64,000 nt of DNA. Source: Eucommia ulmoides (lineage: Eukaryota > Streptophyta > Magnoliopsida > Garryales > Eucommiaceae). Below, piece after piece: positions 21,301 to 62,152 of the stretch; positions within the stretch are counted from its first letter, which is position 1; every line of letters begins with the position of its first letter. The translations under genes and the position numbers were made by a program. Location: the NCBI GenBank assembly GCA_016647705.1, contig CM028327.1, forward strand, positions 44,022,017 to 44,086,016, given 5' to 3'. The notes under the pieces were generated by a model. The model saw only the letters and a list, made by a program, of their open reading frames with translations. It had not been told where the DNA came from and did not search any database.

Positions 21301-24300
21301 CTAAATGGAGACTTGGAGGAAGAAGTGTTCATGAGTTTACCACCGGGCTTTGAGAGAAAGATAGGACAAGGAAAGGTGTGCAAGTTAAAGAAGTCACTAT
21401 ACGGCCTAAAACAGTCACCAAGAGCGTGGTTTGAACGCTTTGGAATTACTGTAAAAGGTCAGGGTTATCAACAAAGCCAAGCAGATCATACTATGTTTTA
21501 TAGACACTTAATTGATGGTAAGATTGCCATTTTAATTGTCTATGTAGATGATATTATCTTAACAGGAAGTGATAGTGACGAGTTGAGAAGACTTAAAGAA
21601 AACTTGCTGATAATTTTGAAATCAAAGATTTAGGACCATTAAAATATTTTCTTGGAATGGAATTTGCTAGATCAAAGGGAGGCATATTTGTGAGTCAAAG
21701 AAAATATGTACTCGACCTACTGAATGAAACAGGGTTACTCGGGTGCAAAGCTGTAGAAACTCCAAGTGAACCGAATGAGAAACTGCAACCGGTCAAACCT
21801 GAAGCTGTGATAAACCAAGAATAATATCAAAGACTAGTGGGGCGGTTAATCTACTTATCACATACCCGTCCTAATATAGCCTTTACCGTAAGCATGGTCA
21901 GCCAATTCATGCACTCACCAGGACAAGAACACTTCGATACTGCCTATAGAATACTAAGGTACTTAAAGGGTACTCCTGGAAAGGGAATTTTGTACAAGAA
22001 ACGTGGTCACCACCTTGTAGAGGTTTACACCGATGCAGACTGGGCTGGGAGCATCACGGACAGGAGATCGACCTCCGGTTAATGTACTTTTGTTGGTGGG
22101 AACCTCGTCACATGGCGGAGCAAGAAACAGAATGTCGTAGCTAGAAACAGCGCAGAAGCGGAGTACAGATCAGTGGCTCACGGCATCTGTGAAGTGTTAT
22201 GGATTAACAGATTACTCGGAGAGTTGAAGATATCTAATTCAATACCTATGAAGGTCTACTGTGATAACAAATCAGCCATTGCGATTGCTCACAATCCGGT
22301 GTTGCACGATCGGACAAAACATGTGGAAGTGGACAAGCATTTCATCAAGGAAAAGATCGATAGTGGACAAATATGTATGCCATATGTATCGACTACTGAA
22401 CAGATCGCAGACATTCTAACAAAAGGATTACCAAAGAAGAGATTCGATTATCTAGTATGCAAGCTGACAATGGAAGATATCTTCATACCAGCTTGAGGGG
22501 GAGTGTTGGAATATATTCAATATTGGTAGTATTTGTATATATGGAAAGTCAAATATACAGATTAGGAAAATAGTTAATTGTAATTAGTTATTTACCTTTT
22601 TTATTTTTTTTAGTTCTTAAGTTTTCCTATATGTAGTCTCATATTGTATGATTAATAATATACATAATTGATTAATTCATTTCACGTATACTCCAGAAAC
22701 CCAACTCAATTTTTTTTCCTTGATCATTCCGATATGTCTCTTTTGCATCTATGTTTGGCAAACACAAAGAGAACTGACCTCATCATCTTTCATCTCTCTG
22801 CCCCGCTCTCTCCCTCTCAAGGACGCAGTCACAGCTGCTAATGGTATATTTGTCTTGCTCTCCTCCATCGCAGGACACAACCCTGCTCTCTCTCACAGGC
22901 ACAGAGCTGCTCGATCTTTGTTGACTGAACGTCCCTCCTCTCTTTCTCGCTCACACATGCACACACAACACACACACACACACACACACATTGATGATTG
23001 AGCAGTGTCTGCTTGCAGATTTGTTTTTTACCCTTTTGTCTGTGGTGTCCTTATCTGTATGTCTAATATTGTGGATGCCTAGTCTGTGCGAGTTCTTTAC
23101 AAAGTAATTATAATTTTTCTAAAAAAAAAATACTGGAATCACATATATATATACACATATTTACATTAAGCCAATAAAATGGATTTTGAAAATCCGATTA
23201 TTGAAAAATGGATTTTGGATTTTAAAAATTCGTATTTGGCAAAAAAAAAAGAAAAAAGAAAAAGACAAACTGATTATAAAAATCCGTTTATGCGATCAAC
23301 ATTTTTTCTTTTTATAAAATACATGAAACGGAGATCAAATCTCCGTTTCATGCATTACCTCCATTTCGGAGTTCCCCCCCGCCGCCTCCCCCCTCCCCCA
23401 CTCTCCCTTCTTTTTCATGAATCCCCAATTCCCCATTCTTCTTTTCTCCTTTCCGAACCCCCTTCTCCATTTTTCTCGTAACCCTAATCCTAATCTTCAA
23501 TTAGTGTTCTTTAAATTTAATATGTGAGTTGATTTTTAAAATAGAAATTTTGGATGAATATATTTAGCATATGTACGCATTGTTTTAAAAATATACTAGT
23601 TTTAGAATGTTAACCTACAAGTTTTTAAAAATTAAACTACAATTTATATAATAGTGTTTAAAATTTGACTGTTAACATTTAAAGTTTTTTTTTTTTAATT
23701 TCATGTTTAATAATATTTTTTTAAAAATAAACAATACATTTAGGGAAAAAAAAAAATTTAGATCACTCTCATTTGTTTTCACACCTAAAAATAAAGAAAT
23801 AAAGAGCTAAAAAAATTTAAGTATTAAGTTCCAAGAGGATATATATAATTATTTAACTTTTTAATATGTGTTTGGATAACAATTTTATTTATTTATTTTT
23901 AGATTTTTTAATTTTGTTTTTCAGGTTAGGTTTTAAGCAATATAATAGCTCTCAATTTGTGGTGGTTGGTAAATTTAATTTTTAAAATTTTTATTAATGA
24001 TTATCAATAAAAAAAAGTCACAATAAAAGAGGAAAAAAGAGAATGTACAACTTTTTTAACCAATTTTATATGTCATATTTATTAAAAAAGAAAATAGACA
24101 TTTCGAATGGAAAGAAAATTAAGGAAATACTTGGATAATTATTACAATGAATACAATTAATATAAGTGAGGGATTGATCTCAAAGCAAAACAACTGAAAA
24201 TAACCGATATAGACATTAAATTGAAATTAAACACGATGACAAGTACAAGTAATCTTAAAAATTAAAAAAAATAAAACATTAGATAAATTAAAAATACTAT

Positions 24301-36279: not shown

Positions 36280-38603
36280 TATTTTTTATATTTTAAAAAA
36301 GTTCGGGCCGGCCGGCCATACACAAAAATGATCAAGCCCTAGCTCGGCCCTAAAAATGAAGGGGCCTTAGTCTTTAGGCCCTAGTCCGGTCTATGGGCTC
36401 AAACACCAAGCCCAAGCCTTAAAAAATAGAGCCGGGCTGGGTGGGCCGATCGGGCCCATGACCATCCCTACTGGGTATGTGCTGGTGTGTGTGTGTATAT
36501 ATGTATGTATATATATAAGGTATGTGTTTTTGTGTTCCATTTGCGATTTCTTCATGCTGCTTTCATACTACAGGTACAGGGTGGAAGGAGGTTGGTTCCT
36601 ACTGCTTTAGGTATCAGCCTAATAAGAGGCTATCAATGTATAGATCCAGATCTCTGTTTGCCTGACATTCGAAGTTTCATTGAGCAACAAATTACATTAG
36701 TTGCAAAAGGGCAAGCAGATCATTGTCTTGTCGTGCAGCATGTTCTTGAGCAATTTAAGCAGAAGTTCAGTTACTTTGTTAAGCAGGTATATATACATAT
36801 ATCTATATCTATCTATCTATATATATATTATCAAGCTTTTCTCTTGAATCTAGTTCTAGTGTTAAACCCGTGCGATGCATGGAATTTTCTGATATTTAAC
36901 CTGAATAATTATCTATGCTCTCTACATTAAACTAAACATATTTAATTGATTGTTTAGTTAAAAAATTTAGCAAAATGATAAAATTTTATCTTCTAAAATC
37001 CGTACTTTTTTTTAAAAAATTATTTGACTTTAATTATGATATCAATACAAATTCAACATATAGTTGATATCAACTATATGAATCCAACATCCACTCGAAC
37101 TTACCAAATGACAAAAAAAGAAAAAAAAGGGAAAAAGAAAAAAATCGCATGACTAAAAATAGAAAAAAACATGGATAAAAAATTACAAATGGATAATACG
37201 ATAAATTTTCCTATAAAAAATGCAAAATTCTTTTTCTTTCCCTATTGAAATCTTGCCCTTTTCTGGGTGCAGATTGATAATATGGATGCATTGTTTGAAG
37301 CCCAGTTTTCTCCGCTTTCGGATTCTGGGCGTGTGCTTAGCAAATGCGGTAAATGCCTGCGCTATATGAAGTACATCTCCGCCCAGCCTTCACGGTTATA
37401 TTGTGGTACATGCGAGGAAGTATACTATGTTCCTCAAAAAGGCAGCGTCAAGGTAAATTTAAAAATCATCATTTTTAGGTGCTAAGGTACTGTATGATGA
37501 CATTTTTTTTGAAGTATTTTTTCTGGTTAATAAATAAAAAAAATGTAAAAATAAAAGTGGAGTTTGTTTTGCTCTTTAAAATTTGAAAATAAGGAAAATA
37601 AAAGGTATTTTTTTGGTGGTGGGGGCGGGTGGTGGGTGAAATAGTCATTTTTCTTATTGTTTTTTTCCCTCAAGAAACTTGGAACAAAAACAAAAATATG
37701 AGAATAAAAAAACCCATAATTTTATCATGTTTCCAAAATTTTATTCTAAAAATCTTGGAACACAACAAAAACATATTTTTTTGGTGTTTTTTATGTAAAA
37801 AATTACACGACTTTATTTCCAATTCCAATTCCAATTCCAATTCCGAACTTTGAATTTCATGCCACCAAACGTTACCTAAATCCTTTTTTCACCCTAGTTC
37901 CCTGAAATTCATATATATGTGTGTGTTTATGTATATATGTATTGATGCGGTTATTTAATTCTTTATGCAGCTATACAAGGAACTAACTTGCCCTCTAGAC
38001 AATTTCGAGCTGCTGATATTTTCCCTGCCTGGTCCGGAAGGCAAAACTTTCCCATTTTGCCCGTACTGCTACAACAGCCCACCGTTCGAAGGTATAGATA
38101 CCCTATACGGTGCCGCTAAATCGGGTCCCACTTCTAAACTAGGTAAAGGAGCCGGTATGCCCTGTTTCCTCTGTCCACACCCCACTTGTCCTCATTCTGT
38201 CGTCGCCCAAGGCGTGTGCGCCTGTCCAGAATGTTCCGGAACACTAGTCCTCGATCCCGTCAGCGCCCCCAACTGGCGGTTATATTGCAACATGTGTAAC
38301 TGTCTCGTGTTTCTTCCTCGTGGGGCACACAGGATATCGACCACGAAAGAGAAGTGTCTTGAGTGCGATTCGACAATTATTGAAGTGGATTTCAACAAGA
38401 AAACGAGCCCCTTGGAGGGCGGAGCAACTTTGCACGTTGGGTGTGTTCTTTGTGACGAGTTGTTGCATTCGCTAGTGGAGATGAAGCACGGGAGGTCGTT
38501 TTCCCGGCGAATGGGCGGCAGGGGGAGGAGGGGAAGGGGCAGAGGAAGGGGACGTGGTGGTCGGAAAGTGGAAGATCCAAAAATGAGTTTTCGGGATTTT
38601 TGA
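12315..38603 (+). CDS. TOP3B: DNA topoisomerase 3-beta, complete, 15 coding exons
   Basis: This is a type IA topoisomerase, which cuts and passes single strands; animal TOP3B also acts on RNA. Coding exons are 12315-12335, 12502-12558, 12929-13032, 16864-16957, 29029-29128, 29614-29854, 30934-31096, 31381-31500, 32874-32953, 33427-33705, 34321-34489, 35211-35339, 36574-36786, 37273-37452 and 37971-38603. All phases agree, giving 860 aa, close to the family's usual length. The Toprim domain has VAEKPSIA near the start and DCDREGEN with D114/D116. The catalytic tyrosine is Y328 in SYPRTES. Other family motifs are [23 protein letters not shown] and [17 protein letters not shown]. Cysteine-pair zinc motifs fill residues 610-820, and the tail [17 protein letters not shown] resembles an RGG box. 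Motifs such as GFCVQRY and the RGG tail match beta rather than alpha. The gene is stretched by transposons in introns 3, 4, 11 and 12. Confidence 0.95.
13700..15200 (+). mobile_element. Decayed LINE reverse transcriptase in TOP3B intron 3
   Basis: Scattered frames give the C-terminal half of a plant LINE reverse transcriptase in the right order. Near 13797 is [21 protein letters not shown]. Near 14290 is ...AKTVRGATC-like sequence. A stretch around 14440 resembles the catalytic FADD region. Around 14640-14700 is the FKYLGS-like stretch followed by [14 protein letters not shown]. Near 15010-15170 are HRSPKDAPV and [16 protein letters not shown]. Many stops and frame changes are present, and no intact ORF remains. 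It has the same orientation as TOP3B. Ends and target duplication were not found, so the limits are approximate. Confidence 0.75.
15363..16044 (+). mobile_element. TRIM chain with three LTR units, family 1, in TOP3B intron 3
   Basis: Three LTR-like units lie in a row: about 15363-15477, 15636-15750 (115 bp) and 15929-16044. The unit begins TGTTGAATCCCATATCAC and ends GGATTTCTACA. The second is followed by gggtatcagagcc, which fits a tRNA-Met primer-binding site. The second and third are preceded by purine runs (tagggggc, tgagggggc) that fit a polypurine tract. Interiors carry the gatatccg...gcagtggttt block. This is the shape of a non-autonomous TRIM joined tandemly by shared LTRs. It has no coding capacity. 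Fossil, with the later two LTRs close to each other. Confidence 0.78.
16045..16863. other. Remainder of TOP3B intron 3
   Basis: A (GTT)n microsatellite at about 16045-16063 is followed by unremarkable intron sequence up to the acceptor before exon 4. Nothing else is recognised. Confidence 0.5.
17396..17567 (+). repeat. 5' LTR of the copia element
   Basis: Runs from TGTTGGAATATTC to GCATTTCA and is followed after three bases by TGGTATCAGAGC, complementary to the initiator tRNA-Met 3' end. Confidence 0.92.
22504..22684 (+). repeat. 3' LTR of the copia element
   Basis: Near-identical to the 5' LTR and slightly longer, mainly from an extended T run. It is preceded directly by the purine-rich gcttgagggggag. 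Confidence 0.92.
22685..23079. other. TOP3B intron 4 between the copia element and the MULE
   Basis: A CT-rich segment of about 395 bp with a (CA)n microsatellite near 22965-22990. It may be original intron sequence. No gene is seen. Confidence 0.5.
23090..23349. repeat. Left TIR of the MULE
   Basis: Inverted copy of 27851-28094 with small indels. It contains ccgtttatgcgatcaacatt and the terminal palindrome around cggagatcaaatctccg. Confidence 0.88.
23350..24380. other. AT-rich interior of the MULE, no gene seen
   Basis: Low-complexity A/T-rich sequence between the left TIR and the second ORF, with no recognisable coding sequence. Confidence 0.5.
24440..25108 (-). CDS. Unrecognised second gene inside the MULE
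   Basis: An ATG at 25108 opens 54 codons ([17 protein letters not shown]..., rich in Ser, Lys and Glu). A TAG at 24944-24946 follows. The same frame then continues open to 24623 with a well-formed globular-looking sequence ([44 protein letters not shown]). Beyond it another frame gives a heptad-like, coiled-coil-prone stretch ([20 protein letters not shown]). A TATA box lies 77-88 bp upstream. I do not recognise the family. It could be a MULE accessory gene or a captured host gene; the internal stop means either decay or an unseen intron. It is on the same strand as the mudrA remnant, unlike the convergent mudrB of maize MuDR. Confidence 0.45.
25185..25195 (-). promoter_or_regulatory. TATA box of the second MULE gene
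   Basis: On the minus strand this reads cctatatatac, about 80 bp before the ATG at 25108. A CT/CA-rich leader lies between, a typical plant promoter layout. Confidence 0.5.
25250..26497 (-). pseudogene. mudrA-like transposase remnant, N-terminal part
   Basis: From an ATG at 26497 the minus strand gives a MULE N-terminal region ([20 protein letters not shown], then [15 protein letters not shown] and [16 protein letters not shown]). It has an in-frame stop early in the sequence (after FYLY). A second block at 25951-25475 is acidic ([20 protein letters not shown]) and then gives the plant-MuDR-type DNA-binding region ([20 protein letters not shown]). This continues in a third piece with [18 protein letters not shown] and YNGQHTC. 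The DDE catalytic domain that should follow is absent and is replaced by unrelated sequence leading into the second gene. It is therefore a deletion relic, unable to make full transposase. Confidence 0.7.
27851..28094. repeat. Right TIR of the MULE
   Basis: Inverted copy of the left TIR. It adjoins the leader of the mudrA-like gene, so it probably supplied its promoter. Confidence 0.88.
28246..28872. mobile_element. MITE with a GC-rich core in TOP3B intron 4
   Basis: The left end is ggcgtttggtaatcg and the right end, inverted, is ggccccgtttggtaaccc. The subterminal parts are rich in gggatgggatgg and its inverted form. The centre (28443-28660) is a strongly GC-rich patch of ccggcg/gccggc repeats unlike the rest of the intron. 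No transposase is present. No clear target duplication was found; the ends resemble common hAT- or Harbinger-like MITEs. Confidence 0.6.
34539..34963 (+). mobile_element. TRIM, family 1, with perfect target duplication, TOP3B intron 11
   Basis: The LTRs are 34544-34655 and about 34845-34958. The 5' LTR is followed directly by TGGTATCAGAGCC, a match to the tRNA-Met primer-binding site. Flanking ATATT occurs at 34539-34543 and again at 34959-34963, a perfect 5-bp duplication as made by LTR-element integrases. The interior of about 190 bp has no coding capacity and carries the gatatc...aatggtttgtcaaa block shared by the family. It shows that the family 1 repeats are true short LTR elements. It looks structurally whole; the LTRs are noticeably diverged, so it is not young. 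Confidence 0.85.
35729..35897. mobile_element. Short MITE with CCAGTGGCGGA ends, TOP3B intron 12
   Basis: Terminal inverted repeats flank about 140 bp of AT-rich DNA: left CCAGTGGCGGAGCC, right inverted CCAGCGGCGGATCT. The ends match a widespread plant hAT-like MITE pattern. Another MITE has inserted at its right edge. Confidence 0.7.
35894..36478. mobile_element. hAT-type MITE with perfect 8-bp target duplication, TOP3B intron 12
   Basis: The element spans 35902-36470 and begins TAGGGATGGTCATGGGCC. Its inverted right end is TAGGGATGGTCATGGGCCCG. CTGGGTAT flanks both sides (35894-35901 and 36471-36478), an exact 8-bp duplication, the hAT signature. Subterminal parts are rich in gcccggcc-type repeats. 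The centre holds a long (AT)n microsatellite at about 36208-36271. No transposase is present. Confidence 0.9.
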
Positions 38604-40700: not shown

Positions 40701-43294
40701 ATGCACTTTCTTACTGCTTCACTGGGCTCTGCTTCTGGCCTAGCCTTTATGTCGCACCATTTCACCGGCGATATCGCCGCTCCGTCACCTTATTCGTCTC
40801 CGGTATCGGTTCCCGCGATTCCGCCTCTAAACTTCCCTAATTTATGCCGGAGTTGTTCAATTAAAAAGTCGCCGGTGTATGTCCCGAAAGTGTCTAGAAC
40901 AGAAGGCATAAACGGGGTTACCACTGCCGGAGCTGACGAAGAATCTACAGAGGACATTCGACTTTCTCGGGTGAGTTCGCCCTTTTCTTCTGATGGAGTT
41001 TAATGTTGTATACTTCTGTTGATTAATCTGGATTGCACTTCAGCTGACCTAGTTTGTAATTTTTTTAGTTTGATTGCTTTACTGGTCCCATAATCGAAGG
41101 GTTTGATCATTGCGTAGGACATGGAGAAGGGTTTTTCAACTCAAAGAAATGGTTGAAATACATGAAATGTTGATCCATTTATAGCACATTTGTGGACATT
41201 TATGCATGATTTTAATTTGTTTTTGGATAATCATGTCAGTGACCGTGTAGAATTTGGCTCTCTTCAACATGATAGTACTTAATGGAGCTCAGTTTAGTAC
41301 TGAGATTTCTGAAACTGTATAATGTTATTCATTTTAAGAGGCAAATGACGTTTTAATTGCTTGGACGCCAATTGCAAGAGTCTTAGATTTTACCCAAAAT
41401 TTGTTAAGTAAGATCAAGAAACCTGTGCAAGTTGCAACGTGATGCTAATGTAATGTCATACTCAAATTAGTCGGCCAAGGTATATGTGTTTAACACGCTA
41501 TGACACACCGGAATACGCATCCGACATGCCTAAATTCGTGTTTGATATTTTGTAATATAATTTATTGTTTGGAACTTTGGAAACTTTACTCGAGGACATG
41601 TATCCATCTACCAATCTCCCTTCCCTCAATTTTTTTTTTTTCCAATTAATTGTCCTTAATGGTGCTACTATACTGAATCAAGTGATCACTGAACGGGGGG
41701 AATATAACTTTTTCTTTTCTTTATGTTTATTTATGATGTATTAATGACATTTTAAGTTTTTGTCTTCAGTAATTTGAAGTTTAGATTCTATTTTCTATCG
41801 CTCTTGTTCAGTTTTTGTCTTGAGCAATTTGAAGTTTAGATTCTATTTTTATTACTCTAATTCAGTTGTTTGAAGTGTATGACACCCCCCAACGCACTTC
41901 TTACTAAGAAATTGTTGTGTCCTATATTTTTAGAATTTAATGTGTCGCCATGCTGTGTCCCGCTGTTACCGCTTCCCGTATCCGTGTTTGTGCATCTTAG
42001 TTTACTTGGGACTTATTGTGATAATATTATATAATAAATAGTGTAAATTTCGGTTGGTGCCAGGACTTTGACATTGGAAGGATAAAAGTTTGGTGATTGT
42101 TCTTCTATCATATTTATGTGGTTGAGACTTGGGATGTGCATGCTGATTTTCCCTTTTTTTCTTTTGTGAAAATTGGAGCGTGTGACTGTGTGATTGTTGA
42201 ATTTTTTTATTAAATGTCAACTGATCTTGGATCATCGGTATATCCAAAATCGGGGAGAAGGGGGGAGGGGATTTACGCCTTCCTTGTCGCTTGTGCAATT
42301 TTCATAAGAAAAAGCTGGGTAGTTAACTCATAAAATGCATAAAATTATTAGATGAAAGAAGAAAAAGATGGACAGTTAACTCATAAAATGCATAAAATTG
42401 TTAGATGAAAGAAGAAAAAATGGAAAGTTAGCTCATAAAATGCATATACTTGTTAGTTGAAAGAGTATGTCTTGCGGAATGTGAATGATATTGGATAATG
42501 TTTGCTTCAAGAACTAGAAAAACATGTCTTATTTTTGTCCCCACTAAGTGAGAGTCTGGGAGGGGATAGGACAATATGTCCTGCAACTATCAAGAAAATT
42601 GATCGCAGTGGGGGGTGGGGGGGAATTTTTTTTTAGAGATGTACCATATATTTTCAGCGCCGTTGTCAGGATTTTGCATTGCTTTACAAAATAGAAGAGA
42701 TATGTGAGTGTCTCTGTATTGTTTGTTGCTTGGGTATTTAATATATGATTTATTTTTATTTTTTTATTTTTTTAAGTACTGTTAAAAGGTGGTTTTGTCT
42801 AATATTTTTTTGTTTGCAAAGAAGTAGGTATCTGCTGATTGGAAGGCAGCAAGAGCTTATCAAGAAAAGGGGCTAATCTATGAGGGCATGGTTGGAGGTT
42901 TCAATGCTGGAGGCCTGCTTATTCGATTTTTTTCTCTTGTGGGTTTTCTTCCCTACCCACTATTGAGCCCGTCTCATTCATATGAAGGTACTTAATCTAC
43001 TCCAAAAATCATATTCTTGCTTTTTCGTATTTTGGATTTTTTCCTCTCTATATACCGATGTTACAACGAGAAAAAAAGTAAAAAAGCAAGCAAGATAGGG
43101 GTCAAGTAAATAAAAGACAAAAATTCGATAATGGTAGTTTGTCACAATCTCTTTTCTCTTTCTGTTAATATTTGTAGCACATTGTAATTTAAGTTTGAAT
43201 ATAATTGTAGTTGCTAAAGACTTAAGGCACACCAAGGTGCCAAGGACTCCTTGGAGCCTAGGTGCAAAGTGAGACAAATCTGACTGAAGTTGAA

Positions 43295-49149: not shown

Positions 49150-49207
49150 TCACTGTAGAACTCTCTCTTTGGACCTCTCACTATTTCTCTGTGATACTCA
49201 TACAACA

Positions 49208-52200
49208 ATGGCAGAAGCTCTGATTGGTGCTGCTGCAGAATTGATTCTATCACAGTTGTTTTTTGGAATCCGTGAAAACATCTGCCTGATATCAGAGTTC
49301 AAGACTGAATTGGATCACCTCAAAGATGAAGTGGAAATGATTCGAGCTGTGCTACGTGATGCTGAGAGAAGCATAGCCAGGAATCATGAAGATACTGAGG
49401 CTGTGAGGCTGTGGATGAGGAAGCTCCAAGATTTTGCTTATAAAGCTGGTGATGTGTTGGATGAGCTAGCTTACGAAGCCCTTCTGCGCAAGGTGAAGAA
49501 TGTAAGTACTTCATCATCTTCGGAATCATCAAATATATCCAAAAGAAAAGAAGTGGCTAAAAAATTCAAGGAGATCTTCAAATCTTCAGAAGAACCATCA
49601 ATTTTTTCCAAAAGAAAAATGGCTAAGAAAATTAAGGAAATATTCACGTCTTTGGAAAGCATTAACAAGCAAGCCTCTGCTTATGGACTCCAGATGGGGA
49701 AGTATATGGCTCCTCCTTTTCCTCACGTCCGACCTAGTCGAGAGACTGACTCGTTTGTTAACTTCTCGGACATTGTGGGAAGAGAGGATGATGCATCCAA
49801 TATAGTGAAAATGTTGTTGACTTGCCAAAACAATCTACAAGCTCTCTCTGTGCTTCCCATTGTGGGATTGGGAGGCGTTGGAAAGACAACTTTGGCAAAG
49901 TTGGTTTATAACAACGGGCAAATGAAAGTAATTTTTAAGAGGATTTGGGTGTGTCTCTCTGATGATTTTGAGGTGAAGAGTCTTTTGAAGAAGATGCTAG
50001 ACTCCCTCAAGAATGAAAAAAGTAATGTAGATACCATAGATGCAGTACTTCAAGGCCTTCAGAAAGAGTTGGACGGGGAAAAATATCTGCTTGTACTAGA
50101 TGATGTATGGAATCAAGATCCTAACAAGTGGAATGATTTCATTAGTCGTTTGCGAAACATTAACACATCGGGTGGTAGCAAAATTGTGGTCACCACCCGT
50201 AATATTGAAGTTGCATCAGTTGTGGGAACTTTTGACAGTCCTTATTCTTTGAAGGGACTATCAAATGACGAGTGTTGGTCCATATTTAGTGCGAGAGCTT
50301 TTGCAAATGGAGGAGTCCCACCAAATGGGGATTTTGAGTCTATAGGAAGAGAAATTGTAAACAAATGTGGAGGTTTGCCTTTAGCAGCAGAGGTAGCAGG
50401 GGGTATGTTGCGCTCCAAGAAAAATAAGCATGAGTGGTTGTTGATTGCTAATAGTGGAGTTTGGAGTTTTCGTGGGGACCAAAGTGGTGTCTTACCTATA
50501 CTAAAGCTGAGTTTCGATAATTTACCATCAGCATCTCTAAAGCATTGCTTTATTTATTGTTCTATTTTCGCTAAAGATTCTATCATGCAAAAAGATGAAT
50601 TAATTCAGCTTTGGATGGCATTAGGATATCTTCAACCGAATGAGGGAGATCATATGGAAATGGAAGATATTGGGAACAAGTATTTCAACATCTTAGTGCA
50701 AAATTCATTATTTCAAGATATTGAGATGGATTATTATGGTAATATCGAAACTTGCAAAATGCATGATCTTGTGCATGATCTGGCTCAATTTATTTCAAAA
50801 CCCCTAGTCTTTGTTGCGGAAGCAAACACGAGATTAGACAAACTAGAGGTTTCTCATATTCGACATATGACATCATACTATGACGGAGTAGAACTTGACA
50901 CCATTCGGGAAGGAGGAGCTGAGAAATTGCGTACGTTGTTTTTGGGTCATATTGAATTTTGCAAAGGCTTGGTCGACTTCAAATGTCTGCGGGTTTTGGT
51001 TTTGAAGTCACTTGGATATGCCAACAAGAATGATTCAACTTCAATAAGTAAGTTGATACATTTGAGGTATCTCGACTTGTCAACACCTTACATCGCTATT
51101 TTGCCAGATTCTATCTCAAAGCTCTACCACTTGCAAACATTACGACTTGGGCGTGTTGGATACTTTCCAAAGGACTTAAGAAATTTGATTAACTTAAGAC
51201 ATCTTTATTTCAGTAGGTCAGTTGTCCACGATTTTCAGATGCCACTTGAGATAGGTCGTTTTACTTGTCTTCAAACATTACAACTCTTCATTGTTGGCAA
51301 AGAGAAAGGCCGTGAAATTGAAGAGCTCGGTTCCTTGCTAAATCTAGGTGGACAACTTGAGATACGGGGTCTAGAAGAAGTGAAGTCCAAGGAGGAAGCA
51401 GAACGTGCAAATTTGTGGAGAAAAGAAAAAATATACAAGCTGGAATTGTGTTGGACTTCCTATACGGGGATCAAAGTCGATGGTAAGATTGCTGAAGATG
51501 TGTTGGGAGGGCTTCAACCTCACCCGAATTTGAAAGGCTTAGAGGTCAACAGCTTTGGAGGCGACAATTTTCCGGTTTGGGTGATGAATATGGAAGTTAG
51601 TAAAGCTAGCAAGTCGTTACTTGAAAATTTGATGGAAATAAAATTAAAGAACTGCGAAAATGTTGAAAAAATTCCAATGTTGGGACACTTGCCACTTCTT
51701 CAGCGTCTCTCATTGTCTAGACTAAATGGAGTAAAATGCATAGGTGAGTCATTTTATGGTGGTGTATCATGTAGGAATGGTGGATCGTTTCCTGCATTGA
51801 AGGAACTTGGTTTGTGGAACATGGGGAAGCTAGAAGAGTGGATGGAAGCAAAGGTAAATACAACAACAACTGCAAAAGAAGAAGCAGGGATGCCGGAGGT
51901 GACGGTGTTTCCTTGTCTTGAAAAGTTGACTATCTATTCTTGTCAACATTTAAAAACCGCTCCCAGTCATTTCCCTCGTCTCAAGAAATTGAAGATTGTG
52001 AATGTTGATAGCGGGTTACCATTAGTAAGCATATGCAACAAGGTGACCACTCTTACCAAACTCACCATCACAGATGTGTTGAAGCTCATTTCTCTACCGG
52101 ATGGGTTATTGCTGAACAATAGGCATCATCTCATGAAGCTGGACATCATGTATTGTCATAATCTAAAGTCAATCCCAAGCTTACAGGGCCTCAATTCTCT

Positions 52201-52849
52201 TACGTATCTATATTGCTGTGATTGTGAGATGTTGGAGAGTCTGCCACAAGGTCTACAATCCTGCACATCTCTCGACTACTTGCATATAATAGATTGCAAT
52301 GGTCTAAAAGTATCCGTTGAAGACGTGCATTCACTGCCGCCTTCTCTCTCCTCCCTAACCATAACTGGATGTCCCAAATTTACATCTTTTCCTTGGGAGC
52401 TTTGTTTCCTCCCCCGTTTAGTAAAGCTGCATATTCAAGAGGGTGTATATGGTCAAAGACGTGTGCAAGACTCTTTGGCAATGGACGATTTTGGCGGCAT
52501 TCAACAGCTACGGGTTTCCCTCCGTGAATTGACATTGACTGGTCAACCTGAATGGGACACTCTACCTGAACAACTTCAGTACCTCACTGCACTGACTTCT
52601 ATAGATCTAAGGCATTTTGGAGTCGAAGTTTTGCTAGATTGGTTTGGGAACCTCGAGTCCTTGGAGAGAATAAGCCTATGGGATATGGTAAAGCTCAAGT
52701 ATCTTCCCTCGTCGGAAGCCATGCGAAAACTCACCAAATTAAGGGGATTGCATGTTGAGAACTGTCCACTGTTGAAGGCAAGATGCAAGGAGGGGGACCG
52801 CCCCGAGTGGTCCAAGATTTCCACCATCCCTGGCGTCACCTTCCGCTGA
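49208..52849 (+). CDS. CC-NB-LRR disease-resistance protein, RGA-like, single exon
   Basis: This is an intracellular immune receptor of the CNL class, expected to sense pathogen effectors and trigger defence. The frame is open from 49169. I chose the second ATG ([11 protein letters not shown]) because CNL proteins of the RGA2/RGA3 type start this way and acaacaATGG is a good plant context; this gives 1213 aa. The coiled-coil region has [19 protein letters not shown] in place of the EDVID motif. The NB-ARC domain has the P-loop GLGGVGKTT (220-228, K226), kinase-2 LLVLDDVW (294-301), [14 protein letters not shown] (389-392) and MHD (518-520). All key residues are present, so it looks functional. 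Leucine-rich repeats fill about 560-1200, with an Arg-rich C-terminus. A small insertion rich in Ser and Lys ([18 protein letters not shown], repeated in part) lengthens the CC-NB linker. Flanking sequence shows duplication of neighbours. Confidence 0.96.
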
Positions 52850-54952: not shown

Positions 54953-55489
54953 CGACCTACTTTATAGGTTGCTACTTTGCAGGGAGTTTGCAAAGGTGCT
55001 CGCTCCTCCCTTTCCCATGATACAAACAAACCCCTATTTATTTTTTAATTTAAATAAAATTATTTTTTATAAAAAAATATTTATCATATTTAATTATTTA
55101 CTTTTTTTGTAATATATTTTAAAAATATTTTTCATTAATTTTTAAGAAATCAAATCATTATATATATATATTTAAATTTGACTATTTTTCAAATTTATAA
55201 TTTTAAAAAAAATAATTTTAAAAATTAATATATTTATCATATGTAATAGTTTACTTTTTTTTTTTAATAACATATTATGTCAAGATTACAATGACAACGC
55301 AATGTTTTTTTTTTTTAACATAAACTCTGTTAATAACACTTCATAGTCCAACTTAGTAAATTGAAAACAGATTAGTGAATAAGTTTTAAAAATTTGTCAA
55401 AATTGTCTGGATGGATTGTTTTGAACACAACACCGTTTTTTTCCGTCACCAAATTAAGACGACTGCGAATCTTTAAATGTTTAATGTTG

Positions 55490-55562: not shown

Positions 55563-55601
55563 GTCAATTTTGGTTCCCTGATTTCTATTCTTACTCTTAA
55601 A

Positions 55602-55836
55602 TTTTGGGATTAATATACATGAACGTGTTTAGTTATGTTCCTAAATTTTTGTGGGTAATTTGAGCGTAACTTCTAAATTCTTTAAAAATCTGATAAAATT
55701 TGATAATTTGAGCGTATCTTTAAAAATCTGATAAAATCTGATAATTTGAGCGTAATTTTTGGGATTAATATACATGAACGTGTTTAGTTATGTTCCTAAA
55801 TTTTTGTGGGTAATTTGAGCGTAACTTCTAAATTTT
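55602..55836. repeat. Direct repeat of about 78 bp
   Basis: The stretch tttttgggattaatatacat through gtgggtaatttgagcgtaac and cttctaaatt occurs at about 55604-55680 and again, essentially identical, at about 55758-55834. The second copy abuts the left end of the foldback element. Confidence 0.8.
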
Positions 55837-55962
55837 TTACGGAAGTAGTGCTACCCGGGATTCGGATCCCCGAGTTTGTGGGGCCGGCGGTATACCCGGG
55901 ATTCAGAATCCCGAGTATACCAAACAAAAAAAAAAAAAAAAAAATTTGGCATACGTGGTTTA

Positions 55963-56019
55963 TACCCAGGGTTTGGTACCCCGGTTCTATGTAGAACCCG
56001 GGGTATCAAACCCCGGGTA
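55963..56019. repeat. GC-rich hairpin in the left foldback arm
   Basis: A near-perfect palindrome built from TACCCAGGGTTTGGTACCCC and its inverted form, centred on ggttctatgtagaacc. Its partner is at 60512-60569. Confidence 0.88.
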
Positions 56020-56403
56020 TAACCCCAATTTTAAAAAAAAAAATCGTTTTTGCCCAAGAAAGTTTTAAAATTTTCGGTAACTTTAAGTTGATTAACGGTG
56101 GTCTATTGATATTTTAAATAAATCTAATTTTTTTGTGCATAAATTAGGTTCAAAACACTACATAATGTTTTTTACAACACTAAAAACGGACAAGTGGATG
56201 AATTTTAAAAAAGGGTAATTAATTTTTTAGTCCTCTATAGAGACCCAATAGAAAAAAAAAGACCCTCTGATATGAACAATTAAGTTTTAAGACCCCACAG
56301 ATTTTTTAGAAAAAAGTCCTTCATTATGATCCCCCTGTTAACATTTATTTACAAGTCTGTCATTCTGTCATTATGCAAGAAGACAAATTTGGACAACAAA
56401 GAG

Positions 56404-57370
56404 TGTTAACGTTAACATAAACTTATTCAAGTAAATACCACTTACCAATATTACAATATTACATTGGGAATTGACGTTAACGTTGTTGAATTCATTTTTT
56501 TTTTAATTTTTTTTTTGCAAGTTAACGCATTATCTCCCAATCTGTCTGTTTTGTGCATTACGTTAACGTTAACTCATTTTATCATTAGATGTATTGTATA
56601 TTTTTTCTCTTGAATATTTAGCATATTTTGTGTGTGTTTTATGTTAATGCATCTTATTAATTTGTGCGTGTGTTAACGTTAACGCGAGTAAATTAAATGG
56701 ACTGAATTGTAAATACATTAATGTTAACGCAATTAATTATTGGGTTGAGATGTAATTGCATTAACATTAACGTAAGTAAGTTACATGTGTTGGTTTGTAA
56801 TTGCATTAACGTTAACACAATTAGTTATCGGGGTTGGGATTGTAATTGCGTTAACGTTAATGCAATTAAGTTACATATGTGGGTTGTAATGGTGTTAACG
56901 TTAACTCAAGTAAGTTAAATGGGTTGGATTATAAATACGTTAACGTTAACACAATTAATTATTGGGCTGGAGTGTAATTGCGTTAACGTTAACGCAAGTA
57001 AGTTACATGTGTTGATTTATAATTACGTTAACGTTAACACAATTAGTTATTGAGATTGTAATTGTAATTGCGTTAACGCAAGTAAATTACACATGCTGGT
57101 TTGTAATTACGTTAACGTTAACACAATTAGTTGTTGAGGTTGGGATTGTAATTGCGTTAATGTTAACGCAATTAAGTTACATGTGTGTGGGTGGTAATTG
57201 TCCCATTTAACTTACTTGCGTTAACGTTAACGCAATTAGTTATTGGGTTAGGGGTGTAATTGTGTTAATGTTAATGTAATTAAATTACATGTACTAGGTT
57301 GTGATTGCGTTAACGTTAACACCATCATCTCATAATTTGTCTGTTTTTGTGCGTTACGTTAACGTTAACT
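56404..57370. repeat. GTTAACGTTAAC palindrome array
   Basis: About 19 copies of GTTAACGTTAAC or close variants occur, most at a spacing of 43-46 bp (for example starts near 56758, 56803, 56848, 56892, 56936, 56979, 57025 and 57070). Spacers alternate between forms such as gcaagtaagttacatgtgtt and acaattagttattggggttg. Each copy is a self-complementary palindrome. Confidence 0.88.
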
Positions 57371-57402
57371 TATTTCACCACCAGACGTTAACTTTAAATC
57401 TG

Positions 57403-57755
57403 GCTGATGGTCGGCGGTGGTTGCCAAATTTGGCTAATGGTGGGCGACAGTTATCCGAATCGAAAATGAACATCACCACCGCCGAACAACATTACCAAAT
57501 CGAACATCAAAACACCACTGCAAAACACCACAAACATGAACAAACACCGTCAAATCGAACATTAAACCCAAAAAAAAAACAAAAAAAAAACAATAAGAAT
57601 TCCATGAATTAGAGAGAGAGAGAGCAGGGGGAGGTTCGGATCTAACTGGTAGCCGGCGGTGGTTGCCGGATCTGACTAGTGGTGGCTGATGGTTGTCCGA
57701 AACGAACATCAACACCGCCAATAACATCCGCCGAATCAAACATCAACACTGCCGA
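57403..57755. repeat. Duplicated GC-richer block inside the Pack-MULE
   Basis: About 115 bp containing ggcggtggttgcc and aacatca.caccgcc occurs at about 57403-57530 and again at about 57645-57755. Its source is not recognised. An (AT)n microsatellite lies just beyond at 57818-57857. Confidence 0.65.
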
Positions 57756-57811
57756 AGAACACCACCAAAACGAACAACATCCATCACTACCAAGAATCAG
57801 AAAAAAAACAT

Positions 57812-57861
<50 letters not shown>

Positions 57862-58229
57862 GAGAAATACCTGTCACCACCACCACTTCAAAAATTATAC
57901 AAAAAAACCCACAAATCTCACAAAAATAGAGTCTCGATCATCATCAAACAACTTATTTTTCATTTTTCTGATCTAAAATCAACAAGAATGCAAAACAACA
58001 AGAATTTGCGAATGCTAACGAAATTCACAGTTTAACCCACAATACCCACAAATCCCACATTACCCACAATATAGAAAGCCACAATACCCACAAAATCTCC
58101 TTTGCTCCCATTCAACTAGCTCCCGTATTAACAACATAATCCTTTAGAAGCTAATTCACAAATTAAACAGCCGAATTGCTTGTGTGTGCTCATGTGGAGG
58201 AATTGCATTGGGGATTTCTGAAGATGAAC

Positions 58230-58366
58230 CTGTAAAGGTAGGGCATCCATGCCGGCTCGAAGAGCGACTATTGGGGAAGAACCGGAGCCAATTTGAGTAA
58301 CCAATCCAGTTTTGGCGAAAGGAAAATCGCAAGAGATTCCGAGTTTATCGAGTTCGCCTCGAATTC
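58230..58366 (-). pseudogene. Captured exon of an ILR1-like IAA-amino-acid hydrolase
   Basis: One open piece reads [20 protein letters not shown], then [20 protein letters not shown] and ALPLQ. It matches the N-terminal part of plant M20-family amidohydrolases that release IAA from amino-acid conjugates. It is bounded by an AG acceptor (before 58366) and a GT donor (after 58230, at the LPLQ junction known from this family), so it looks like one exon with splice sites. The metal-binding residues further along the enzyme are missing, so no activity is possible. Confidence 0.8.
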
Positions 58367-58588
58367 CTGACGTTGACGACGGTCGCCTTTCTTTGCTCGC
58401 TCGTCGTTTACAGGTAGCTGAAGAATCAAATAAGGAAGATAGTTTTCTAAAACAGATTACGGTTTTGCTCATTTAAGAAATGAAATCGATATTCAAAATC
58501 TGAACAATGACACAAGTGTGTGTTTATGTATTTTTAGGGGAAGAGAGAAATAAAGAGAGAGAGAGAGAGAGAGAGAGAAGAGGATTAC

Positions 58589-58713
58589 AGGCTTGTCGGG
58601 GACGATATGTTTGCCGATGGGGAGGCCCATGCCGGAGCAGAGGCGACGGATCGAGAGACGACGCCGTTTCCGCCCATAATTCGCAATGCTACATGGCTCA
58701 ATCTTCCAGCCAT
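58589..58713 (-). pseudogene. Captured first exon of NDUFB8 (mitochondrial complex I)
   Basis: From an ATG at 58713 the minus strand gives MAGRLSHVALRIMGGNGVVS and RSVAS, then in a second frame GMGLPIGKHIVPDKP, ending at a GT donor after 58589. This matches the start of plant NADH dehydrogenase 1 beta subcomplex subunit 8. The change of frame between the two blocks breaks the exon, and no later NDUFB8 exons are present. It lies about 220 bp upstream of, and on the same strand as, the hydrolase exon, separated by a (CT)n tract. Confidence 0.8.
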
Positions 58714-60511
58714 TTTCCGGCAATTGAGATTTTGCTCAAGGAATCAGAAAAACTTGTAGTACACATTTGAAAACCCCAAAAAAAGAGATGAAGATGGTCT
58801 GCTAGGTTTTTAGAGAAAGAGAGAGAGAGCATTTAGAGAGTGAATGTGGGTAAAATTTAGAGAGAGGGTGAGGGTGTGGATCAGATATGAGAGTTAACGT
58901 AAAAACGTAAATGTGATGTTAGGTTTAGAGTGAGAGAGATAAATGGTTAATGTAAATGAGAGAGGGATATATATATCTTTTTACATCCTATTTTGTCCTA
59001 TCTAAGGGTTAAAAACTTAATTGGTTGTACTGTTTGGTCTGAATTCTATCCAAACTTATGAAAATATTTTTTTTCTTAATGGTCTCTCTATGGGGGACTA
59101 TATAATAAAAAACTCTTTAAAAAATCGTAAAAGTTGACCAGACGAGTTGTTTCGATAACGACAGAATTTTTTTGGGTAATTTAGAATTAACAAAAGATTG
59201 CATGTCTGTAACAGAAATGAACCAAATTTTTTGTATATAAACTATGTTCATAACACTATATAACAAAACTTAGAACACTAAAAATGGACAAGTGGATGAA
59301 TTTTAAATAATCGACAAAGTTGATCAGACGAGTTGTTTCGATGACGATGTAGTTTTTTTGAAACTTTGAGTTAACAAAAAATGGTCGTCTATCAGTAACA
59401 AAAATGAACCTGATTTTTTTTGCGTACAAACTATGTTTATAATACTAAATAATAAAATCGAGAATACCAAAAATGGATTAGTGAATAATTTTTAAATAAT
59501 GGTTATTATCATAACATTTTATTGCTCTTCAACGTTTCAAAAACACTATATTGCTCTTCAATGTTTGGATGGACATAACTTTACGCTCGGTGATCCATTG
59601 GGGGCATTTTTTTTTTTAAAAGTTGGGTCTGATTTGAGTCATCACTCTGACTTTTGAAGATTTCAATTTTATCAACAGAACAAGACACACGTTCGCAACG
59701 AATATTACAAATTTATTCACCCAACACTTTGAATCCAAAATTGAAGGTGCAAATGGGCTTTATTTGAAAAAATATTGAACCTTTGGCAGTTTGCCATGCC
59801 TAAATCTCGAAAAAATACCTGAAATAAAAAATAAAAAAAAAAACAAAAAAAAAAAAAAACACCCCAAACCGACCATTGAGCGTAAAGTTATGTTTATCCA
59901 AACTTTTTTTATTATTTTACATAAGTTTTCTCTTCTCTCAACACCATATATTCTCTTATCCGTTTTTTGTATTCTCGATTTTATTCTTTAGCGTTATGAA
60001 CGTAGTTTGTTTACAAAAAAATCAGGTTTATTTCTATTACGGATAGACAACCATTTTTTGTTAACTCAAAATTTTCAAAAAAACTGCACGTCATCGAAAC
60101 AACTCGTCTGATCAACTTTGGCGATTATTTAAAATTCATCCATTTGTCCGTTTTCAGTGTTCTAAGTTTTGTTATGTAGTGTTATGAACATAATTTATAT
60201 ATAAAAAAATTGGTTTATTTATGTTACAGACATGCAATCTTTTGTTAATTCTAAATTGCCGAAAAAAATTTCGCCGCTGTCGAAACAACTCGTCTGGTCA
60301 ACTTTGGCGATTTTTTAAAATTCATCCACTTCTCCGTTTTTAGTATTGTAAAAAATATTATGTAGTATTTTAAACCTAATTTATGCACAAAAAAAATTAG
60401 ATTTATTTAAAATATCAATAGACTACCCTTAATCAACTTAAAGTTGCCGAAAATTTTTAAAAAAAATTGGGCAAAAATGATTTTTTTTTTTTTTTTTTGA
60501 AATTGGGATTA

Positions 60512-60569
60512 TACCCGGGGTTTGGTACCCCAGGTTCTATGTAGAACCCGGGGTACCAAACCCCGGGTA
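60512..60569. repeat. GC-rich hairpin in the right foldback arm
   Basis: Runs from TACCCGGGGTTTGGTACCCC to GGGGTACCAAACCCCGGGTA with arms of about 28 bases. It is a palindrome nested in an arm that is itself half of a larger palindrome. Confidence 0.88.
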
Positions 60570-60690
60570 TAAATCACGTATGCCAAAAAAAAAAAAAAAA
60601 AAAATTGTATACCCAGGGTTCTGAACCCCGGGTATGCCATTGGCCCCATAAACCCGGGAATCCGAATCTTGGGTAACATTACTTCGGTAA

Positions 60691-61060
60691 ATAAGATGAA
60701 AAGTATTCTATTTTAATAATTTTGTTTTAAATTTGTATTAGAAATGTAAACAACTCTTCTTCAATTTGTGCTGCAACCGAAAATTTGACAGATAAAGAAA
60801 GAAGACAGATTATTTGGGAGTGACTTCCACTGCTGACAAAAGTCCCAAATTTAATTGATAAATGGAACAAGCTTCCAAAACTCCTTTCAAAAAACGTGTT
60901 GGCTTTTGCTCAATTATTTCAAAAGGTAGCTATTATTTTCAAAAGAAGCCAATCACATATCACAAAAGAAAGATCTTTCATTTTTGTCAAAAGAAAAGGG
61001 CCCACCATTGAAAAAAGAGCCTACTTTCATCATTCCTCTCTATAGTCTATACCAATTCAA
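60691..61060. other. Intergenic DNA right of the foldback element
   Basis: AT-rich, with no gene recognised. Confidence 0.45.
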
Positions 61061-61206
61061 TTATGGTAGTTTGTCACAATCTCTTTTCTCTTTCTGTTAA
61101 TATTTGTAGTACATTCAAAATTTAAGTTTGAATATTATTGTAGTTACTGAAGACTTAAAGGCACACCAAGGTGCCAAGGACTCCTTGGAGCCTAGGCGCA
61201 AAGTGA
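61061..61206. repeat. Dispersed repeat, copy 2
   Basis: Closely matches 43130-43275 in the same orientation, sharing tttgtcacaatctcttttct and ccaaggactccttggagcct. Confidence 0.75.
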
Positions 61207-62152
61207 GAGCAGCAGACCCCATCACTTAAAAAACAAAAAACAGAGTTGAATTTAACTGTACTCATAATTGCAAGGCTACAAAAAAATATACAATAATTTA
61301 TTGCATGGGTTGCCACCCTCAATAATTATAAAGAATAAGAGGTGTATATGGTATTAAAAGATAAAATATTATCCCGTTATTTATCTCAAAGATAGAGGGT
61401 GTCTCATGTTCATCCGGGTCAGTCTAGTGGCTTAATCCATGCCACGTACCTTCTCATTGCCCACACCTTAGTTTACAGTAATTGACGGTGCTCAAGGCTC
61501 TAATTTTGCTTAGCTAATAAGCATCATCTTCAATGCCCAAGGTAAAGCTCAACTATCCTTCTTAAAACAAATACCCGTCTATTTCTCTGGAGCTATTATT
61601 TTCACACCGAAAGGACTTCGTTAGACATATCCCAGCGAGTCGTTGTGCAGGTGCATGCTTGGACTAAGGAGAACGTTGACCAACGGCCGCACATCGAATA
61701 CAACCCACCGAATACTTGAACTCCACCTTAGTAAGAAATCTCTACGTGTACGTTGACTGGACTAATTGGAGATGTTGATCAATTTTAGACACCAACAAAA
61801 ATATTGTTCTATTTTAGCGAGATGTTGATTAATTTTAGACACTAACAAATTTATTTTTTTCTAGCTAGATGCTTAACAATATTAGATGCCAATAATTTTT
61901 TATTTTTTTTTCCTAGATGATTGTGTTATATTAGAAAGAATAATGTAAAACAGAAGACTTGATAATAATAACAAGAATAAGATCTTTTGTTTCAAGACGG
62001 TCTTAGGTTTTTCCAAGATGTAGCCTACCATTACTAGGTGTGGGGGATTCACACTCACACGGGATTGACAAATCATTTATTTACTTTATTTTATTAATTT
62101 TATTTTTTTTTTAAATATTTTCTTTTTTTATATATTGAAGACTGTTACAGCA
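61207..62152. other. Unassigned region with a GC-richer patch
   Basis: 61245-61320 resembles the NLR upstream region (48785-49000), sharing taactgta..cataattgcaa and ttattg.attgc.tggg. A GC-richer patch at 61380-61760 has no long ORF and is not recognised. Confidence 0.4.

Follow-up and report, generated by a model that had tools for sequence, protein, structure and literature searches.

How does a stretch of genome come to hold one transposon inside the arm of another, and how did the inner one come to carry pieces of two host genes? Both questions are raised by a 64,000-nucleotide stretch of Eucommia ulmoides DNA (the window), where a Pack-MULE-like insert interrupts one arm of a foldback. 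We hold with high confidence that the foldback came first and the insert second, that recombination between sisters of the insert gave a hybrid cargo that was then amplified, and that transposase would have come from elsewhere.

The insertion and its empty site

The foldback and its immediate surroundings are laid out as follows.

55598..55839, plus strand: local duplication of ~155 bp (98% repeat) adjoining the truncated left end
55837..56212, plus strand: outer left arm of the foldback (82% inverted match; terminal ~70 bp missing)
56204..56212, plus strand: left 9-bp target duplication TTTAAAAAA (direct reading)
56213..59115, plus strand: Pack-MULE-like insert, 2903 bp, GGGTAATTAA...AAAAAACTC (all 20 other left arms lack it; sisters have the same ends)
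59116..59124, plus strand: right 9-bp target duplication TTTAAAAAA (direct reading)
59125..59617, plus strand: inner left arm, ~187-bp tandem units (repeat and inverted matches)
59618..59848, plus strand: foldback loop (conserved among copies; inverted match on either side)
59849..60756, minus strand: foldback right arm, unbroken (arm alignments)
60751..60756, minus strand: true right end of the foldback, CAACTC (comparison with other copies)

A preliminary description of this locus had claimed that the left arm is split by 2.9 kb, that a 9-bp duplication flanks the insert, and that the right arm preserves the intact site. This is borne out. The insert lies between two exact copies of TTTAAAAAA, and the alignment proposed in that description, of the left arm minus the insert with the inverted right arm, is continuous over the insertion point. 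Here, a 646-base sequence made of 56033-56212 and 59125-59590, in which only one copy of the repeat was retained, was locally aligned with 59875-60491 in inverse orientation. Both sequences align from their first base to base 543; of the 541 aligned positions 488 are identical, gaps take up 4 columns, and there is no break at the junction, GAATTTTAAAAAATCG; the empty-site copy in the right arm is at ~60301-60330. The outer arm parts, 55833-56212 and 60311-60694, give an 82% inverted match. Each arm contains ~187-bp tandem units, so that some of the matches between arms are out of register.

The genome search, also proposed earlier, scored the best 40 of 1992 candidates, which makes its counts lower bounds; the 20 copies fetched and compared are those ranked 2-21 among 40 full-length matches, the other 19 being left out. 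All 20 are without the insert. The site is unbroken in every left arm and in all 19 right arms open to reading; the twentieth, that of L041, of which only a ~160-bp piece is present, was not located there. The exact 9-mer TTTAAAAAA is found in 38 of these 39 arms, one substitution in one arm being the sole deviation. The insert, then, entered the left arm of an existing foldback, duplicating 9 bp.

The very large palindrome that had been described stands, with different measures. Its arms are ~0.9 kb rather than ~0.8 kb, and its loop is ~230 bp rather than 285 bp, as the inverted match picks up again at 59560-59617/59849-59906. The element ends with CAACTC at 60756, and not, as had been claimed, at 60690. 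At the other end, further copies reach ~70 bp beyond 55837, to GAGTTG, bases that the window copy is without. Two side observations concern the flank: ~130 bp of the duplication there is ~75% similar to a dispersed repeat found in the genome search, and the arm unit has a weak relative beyond the element, at 55307-55443.

Two other readings of this arrangement have to be weighed. The arms might be independent dispersed repeats inverted by chance, or an assembly artefact, and the ~10-13% by which the window arms differ, like the stray relative of the arm unit just mentioned, would fit this. The preliminary description had itself named misaligned or independent arms as what would undo it. However, left arm, loop and right arm stand together in 19 of the 20 fetched copies, and outer 10-bp duplications are recognisable in 17 of them (identical in 12, with one mismatch in 3, shifted by an indel in 2; absent from 3). 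Further, 25 inward-facing pairs of exact foldback termini lie 0.9-2.1 kb apart among the 100 of 105 termini listed. In most copies the arms also cluster by side, left with left and right with right; the exceptions are L042, whose two arms are nearly identical, and L039, whose left arm clusters with right arms. This grouping implies that the divergence of the arms is mostly older than the spread of the copies. Mean differences are 0.080 between left arms (a similarity biased upward, since the window's left inner arm was the reference by which copies were ranked for similarity), 0.105 between right arms, 0.119 within one element, and 0.127 between left and right arms of different elements. Chance inversion or an assembly artefact is hardly credible.

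Nor is much credit due to the idea that the insert is ancestral in the arms and that the right arm and every other copy then lost it precisely. Transposons can in principle excise, of course, but this would require loss from 39 of 39 readable arms in the 20 other copies, each time back to one copy of the site and, save for one substitution in one arm, with no footprint, and the insert's own family occurs at separate locations with 9-bp duplications. We consider such a history extremely improbable.

Ends, families and transposase

The usual combination of features in Mutator is a 9-10-bp duplication, inverted ends that start with G, and the capture of gene fragments. The family of the foldback is present in high copy number and bounded by GAGTTG...CAACTC. 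Its target duplications are 10 bp long, within the 9-11 bp expected of Mutator, and in 15 of 20 copies the two repeats agree at 9 or more of the 10 positions. The foldback's long, repeat-structured inverted arms, its short loop and its movement as a unit, seen in the two-armed copies, are those of a foldback transposon. On these sequence features the foldback is most likely Mutator-like.

The insert has the following parts.

56213..56250, plus strand: left terminus (imperfect inverted match to 59076-59115, common core TAGTCCYCYATAGAGA)
56670..57325, plus strand: ~45-bp tandem array rich in GTTAACGTTAAC (repeat comparison)
58103..58365, minus strand: captured fragment A, ILR1-like (94% to L053)
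58366..58398, plus strand: A-B linker (exact stretches GACGTTGACGACGG, ACGGTCGCCTTTCTTTGCTC)
58399..58769, minus strand: captured fragment B, NDUFB8 (match to L051)
58770..59115, plus strand: right end (sister comparison)
59076..59115, plus strand: right terminus (alignment; sister ends)

Its first 23 bp have at least 110 exact copies in the genome. The search with the insert scored the best 40 of 959 candidates, so that counts of its relatives are lower bounds. Loci L056-L065, L074 and L075 also gave hits and lie outside the comparisons given here. Nineteen copies were examined; nine of them, the window's own among these, could be read at both ends, and there the 9-bp duplications are perfect in six, carry one mismatch in two, and are absent from one with degraded ends. 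The earlier naming of the insert as Pack-MULE-like is supported by its host-gene fragments, with donor candidates outside transposons, and by its exact 9-bp duplication, within the 8-11 bp of a Pack-MULE; that its terminal inverted repeats are short and imperfect counts against it. As expected of such an element, it appears to encode no transposase: the window gave no PF10551 match among the best 150 of 2936 candidates, and of two open reading frames of at least 100 aa in the insert, the one scanned had no Pfam match.

Where, then, is the transposase? A by-eye comparison of 100 of the 105 foldback termini, the 110 insert termini listed of at least that number and the best 150 of 2936 MULE-transposase candidates placed none between paired ends, as far as those lists reach, and no autonomous partner bearing GAGTTGTTTACATTT or GGGTAATTAATTTTTTAGTCC termini came to light. 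Consequently, Mutator membership is based on duplications and architecture rather than on a shared transposase, and the strict label of MULE is unproven for foldback and insert alike. Against one autonomous-type family, compared over a stretch that stops short of its ends, the insert gave only short, low-scoring matches. A kinship of the foldback arms with this family, an abundant MULE family having a 757-aa frame flanked by inverted ~186-191-bp tandem repeats of its own, was considered and rejected; the best score of the unit, 31, is no better than that of 20 shuffled sequences (mean 34, maximum 48). One 50-base match of the foldback to that family (78%, E 0.001) was taken as AT-rich chance.

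One or the other element could belong to another superfamily with 9-10-bp duplications, as the failure of these comparisons to find a shared transposase would allow. Their duplications, G-starting inverted ends and gene-fragment capture nevertheless make up the usual Mutator set, and we judge another superfamily improbable. Duplications of 8-11 bp have been used for MULEs (PMC3903597).

Two gene fragments and the junction between them

Fragment A is antisense and comprises the end of exon 1, the intron and the first codons of exon 2 of an ILR1-like IAA-amino-acid hydrolase. Its donor candidate (L053, C7:35.04 Mb, 94% identity) has a product that matches 1xmb (E 1.9e-47); an NCBIfam amidohydrolase model matches it below cut-off, as expected for a fragment, and the only other element sequence there is one 28-bp low-scoring match. 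Fragment B, also antisense, comprises the 5' UTR, exon 1, intron 1 and the start of exon 2 of the complex I subunit NDUFB8. Its donor candidate (L051, C6:19.58 Mb; 95% identity ungapped, 87% counting gaps) has a product that matches NDUB8 8e73 (E 1.2e-60) and no Pfam model, and no other element sequence was found there. Since each fragment retains an intron, both were captured from DNA.

The cargo does not behave as a maintained gene, at least where an open reading frame spans A and B (58128-58472, minus strand, 114 aa, no Pfam match). That it might be maintained was rejected because the frame decays in the five other A+B copies: L046 alone keeps the ATG and meets a stop after 29 codons, L045 keeps the frame and has lost the ATG, L047 and L048 have one gap column each and a different frame, and L049 has no ATG and a stop after 22 codons.

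Twelve genomic matches to 58100-58780 were found: six with A and B, window included, two with A without B, and four with B without A. The single-fragment sisters L052, L050 and L055 are built on structurally different backbones, one for each type. The A-type sister L052 has a longer A, adjoining the tail of a third gene fragment, C, and no B; in the B-type sisters L050 and L055 nothing passed the thresholds set for a match to A. The GTTAACGTTAAC-rich array has the same orientation in the window as in L052 and is reversed in L050 and L055. Sisters of one backbone have in common the left part, to ~58059-58108, and the last ~110-220 bp, and differ in what lies between: fragment C, from an alpha/beta-hydrolase; other GC-rich sequence; or A with the tail of C.

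The linker carries both types. GACGTTGACGACGG is exact in L070, at the point where fragment C stops and element sequence restarts, and ACGGTCGCCTTTCTTTGCTC is exact in L050, immediately before B. The exact stretch of the one type is 14 bp in L070, 11 in L072 and 8 in L052, and that of the B type is 20 bp in L050 and 10 in L055; the longest match in 300 shuffles was 10 bp for either stretch. The 14-bp and 20-bp stretches follow in succession, with a 4-bp overlap. To the right, the hybrid is like the B-only type throughout from 58376. Its right end, 58770..59115, is common to the B-only sisters over its full length, and to L052 and L070-L073 over the last 106-223 aligned columns only.

Single-capture sisters on different backbones, together with such a linker, make recombination between sisters the most likely source of the hybrid; the joining of two single-capture lineages by recombination, and the multiplication of the product to at least six copies, are strongly indicated. 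The alternative is that A and B were gathered by stepwise capture and internal deletion in one lineage, the A-only and B-only sisters being later losses or independent captures. L052, which stacks its longer A beside the tail of C, does indicate that serial capture occurs in this family. Yet a single lineage does not readily give a right part of B-only type from 58376, an array in A-type orientation, a linker that passes from one type to the other within a 4-bp overlap, or B-only sisters in which A is not matched. Stepwise capture is a rather unlikely course. On balance, we lean toward a family of Pack-MULE-like elements in which cargo has a standing position, where multi-gene cargos arise by recombination between single-capture sisters and where the hybrid of the window is one outcome, which kept its junction frozen and was later amplified.

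The history, then, runs as follows. A ~2-kb non-autonomous, Mutator-like foldback, a member of a large family, landed here first; a 2.9-kb non-autonomous Pack-MULE-like element later entered its left arm, duplicating 9 bp. The cargo would come from A-capture and B-capture sisters that recombined, the hybrid then being amplified. Transposase for both movements was most likely supplied from elsewhere in the genome.

Relation to known elements

FARE is a foldback family of Arabidopsis, and the present family is likened to it as a plant foldback transposon with long arms, by general description. The literature on Eucommia gave, among its top-ranked matches, no name for the foldback or insert family, which is weak evidence. 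Tm1, a Mutator/Foldback family of root-knot nematodes, makes duplications that are mostly of 9 bp (8-10) (PMC3169594); like ours, it has composite foldback-type inverted repeats and examples with another element nested inside. Unlike Tm1, the present family has a plant host, 10-bp duplications, ~187-bp tandem arm units and no coding copy found. Among coding MULEs of maize and rice, nested insertions occur in more than a third of candidates (PMC3903597). The window likewise has a transposon inside a MULE-like element, but neither partner yielded a transposase, and the empty site is within the same element.

Pack-MULEs and other Pack-TYPE elements are known in rice, maize and tomato (PMC8903248, PMC3310237). 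The insert resembles them in being non-autonomous and multi-copy, in carrying host gene fragments, sometimes from several loci, and in its duplications of the 9-bp class; it differs in its short, imperfect ends, to which no autonomous element is linked, and in having donor candidates, single-capture sisters and hybrid all in one genome.

The nested pair is a well-documented case of a known type, and modestly interesting. It offers a relative date, of course, the foldback copy in which the empty site lies being older than the insert. Nesting in itself is ordinary; the relatives of the insert are unusually clear on how gene pieces are picked up and combined. Multi-gene Pack-MULEs are known, and how their pieces were joined has usually had to be inferred from one element at a time. 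In the present genome, a hybrid with a readable junction occurs together with single-capture sisters and donor candidates, so that recombination versus serial capture is directly testable.

The foldback and its copies

The window (C3:44022017-44086016; GC 35%) was compared with itself and with the genome, the searches covering 946.7 Mb in 391 contigs. Within the foldback, self-comparison gave two inverted matches, one pairing 59116-59487 with 59949-60319 (89%) and the other 55833-56212 with 60311-60694 (82%). The arms hold tandem units of ~187 bp and GC-rich hairpins.

With 59200-59590 as the query, the genome returned at least 73 matches (best 40 of 1992 candidates scored). The 40 full-length rows comprise the window copy, the next 20, which were analysed, and the last 19, which were left out. 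The preliminary description had treated the arms as one foldback unit, and both arms and the loop indeed recur together in 19 of the 20 other copies; in the copy L041, the second arm is only a ~160-bp piece. Copies are 1.8-2.1 kb long (n=18, setting aside L032 and L041, where both ends were not found).

The ends first proposed, however, were too short. The sequence common to the copies extends ~65-70 bp further, to GAGTTGTTTACATTT...CAACTC. A terminus pattern has 105 exact occurrences in the genome, against 0 for a reversed control; the 100 places listed include 25 inward-facing pairs, all spaced 0.9-2.1 kb apart. The 10-bp duplications at the ends are identical in 12 of 20 copies and carry one mismatch in three; those of L025 and L027 match with an indel, and none is readable in the remaining three (L029, L032, L041).

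The right end of the window copy is 60756. At its left end, a local duplication (55598-55839) has taken the place of the terminal ~70 bp; part of this duplication is similar to a dispersed repeat, and faulty break repair may account for the replacement. Just outside this truncated end, 55307-55443 is a diverged (~67-74%) relative of the 187-bp unit, and a comparable remnant occurs in the copy L036 (4985-5401). In another copy, L042 (C5:48.94 Mb), the difference between the arms is just 4% (mean of the copies, 12%), and part of the loop and arm is deleted; arm-to-arm conversion is a possible cause of this near-identity.

The insert and its family

The view that the left arm was interrupted by a later insertion is borne out. 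Aligned across the junction, with the second copy of the repeat counted once, the left arm and the inverted right arm are identical at 488 of 541 positions (543 bases aligned). The site is likewise uninterrupted in all 20 left arms and all 19 readable right arms of the other copies. Therefore, the insert is younger than the foldback copy that carries it.

The left 308 bp of the insert have at least 40 matches (best 40 of 959 candidates), of which 39 lie outside the window, at 89-95% identity; its first 23 bp occur exactly at least 110 times, against 0 for a reversed control. The two ends are imperfect inverted repeats of each other and share a TAGTCCYCYATAGAGA core. Nineteen copies were examined, with both ends covered in nine; in the other ten, one end lies beyond the sequence analysed or was not recognised. 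Among the nine, the 9-bp duplication is perfect in six and has one mismatch in two; the copy at C8:52.96 Mb has none. Four of the sisters are short, at 0.9-1.2 kb.

Captured fragments and the joining of A and B

58103-58365, minus strand: fragment A, from an ILR1-like IAA-amino-acid hydrolase
58399-58769, minus strand: fragment B, from NDUFB8

Both fragments are antisense to the element, and both retain an intron. Pack-MULEs prefer GC-rich 5' parts of genes; the GC of A (0.445) and B (0.429), higher than that of the element (0.358) and the window (0.346), is in line with this preference.

A genome search with 58100-58780 gave 12 matches from 12 candidates, all scored. Six carry A and B together (the window and L045-L049), two A without B (L052, L053), and four B without A (L050, L051, L054, L055). 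L053 and L051 are candidate donors of A and B, respectively; L051 has no other element sequence, and L053 none beyond one 28-bp low-scoring match. Translated conceptually, L053 gives matches to Arabidopsis ILR1-like 2 (1xmb, E 1.9e-47) and Peptidase_M20, and L051 gives one to complex I NDUB8 (8e73, E 1.2e-60) but none in Pfam. L054 is related to B more distantly and matches the element nowhere else.

In L052, A is longer, covering 504 bp of the donor at 94.6%, and after it comes the tail of a third fragment, C. This fragment is a piece of an alpha/beta-hydrolase (the L072 frame matches PF00561, E 5.4e-12). The candidate donor of C, L076 (C8:19.05 Mb), has no match to the window's insert. Four further relatives, L070-L073, were picked as matches that reach about the border of A and were not among the A carriers of the search with 58100-58780. 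L070 and L072 have C without A; L071 and L073 have other GC-rich sequence in its place.

L052 and L070-L073 match the window over the left part and, at the right end, over no more than the last 106-223 aligned columns. In the B-only L050 and L055, it is the right part that matches, from 58376 or 58418 onward, and their tandem arrays are oriented opposite to those of the window and L052. Within the 33 bp that link A and B lies GACGTTGACGACGG, found exactly at the end of C in L070, with 11 bp in L072 and 8 in L052; of its 14 bp, about 8 are hydrolase sequence and the rest element sequence. Overlapping it is ACGGTCGCCTTTCTTTGCTC, found exactly in L050 directly before B, with 10 bp in L055. In 300 shuffles, the longest stretch was 10 bp with either. 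The linker recurs, with few differences, in the five other copies having A and B.

How might A and B have come together? The main rival explanation is serial capture with deletion. Judged from sequence comparison, the likeliest origin is recombination between two single-capture sisters, giving a hybrid that was then amplified.

Coding capacity, neighbours and known kinds

There is no evidence of a gene product from the insert. A 114-aa open frame spanning B and A is not maintained; the only other frame of at least 100 aa lies at 57301-57612. Most simply, foldback and insert are both non-autonomous cut-and-paste transposons. MULE transposases are numerous in the genome; among the best 150 of 2936 candidates scored, none is linked to the ends of either. 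A 757-aa open frame occurs in 18 of these 150 rows, 15 of them with equal score. The loci L066, L068 and L069 (C3:5816800-5828300) and L067 represent this multiplied family, whose frame is flanked on both sides by long, inverted ~186-191-bp tandem arrays; the ends of the family lie beyond the sequence analysed.

Other features of the window are as follows.

49169-52849, plus strand: intact-looking CNL disease-resistance-type gene adjoining the nested transposons; single 1226-aa frame with Rx_N, NB-ARC, winged-helix and LRR domains
18163-22496, plus strand: Copia-type retroelement frames, the coding region split over several; 627-aa frame with integrase, SH3-like and reverse-transcriptase domains
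36487-36927, plus strand: frame with a weak DNA topoisomerase family match (PF01131, E 4.4e-5, under the Pfam cut-off), suggesting that exons of a topoisomerase gene lie close by
61054-61208 and 43122-43274: 155-bp repeat, two copies 18 kb apart, 93% identity

The nested pair belongs to known kinds of element. Earlier work describes insertions nested within MULEs (PMC3903597), foldbacks of the Mutator type that contain nested elements (PMC3169594), MULEs whose inverted ends are repeated (PMC3310237), and Pack-TYPE elements that carry pieces from several loci (PMC8903248); gene capture is the subject of a 2026 review (PMC13317346). The value of the present case is that one genome holds the candidate donors, the single-capture sisters and the putative hybrid together.
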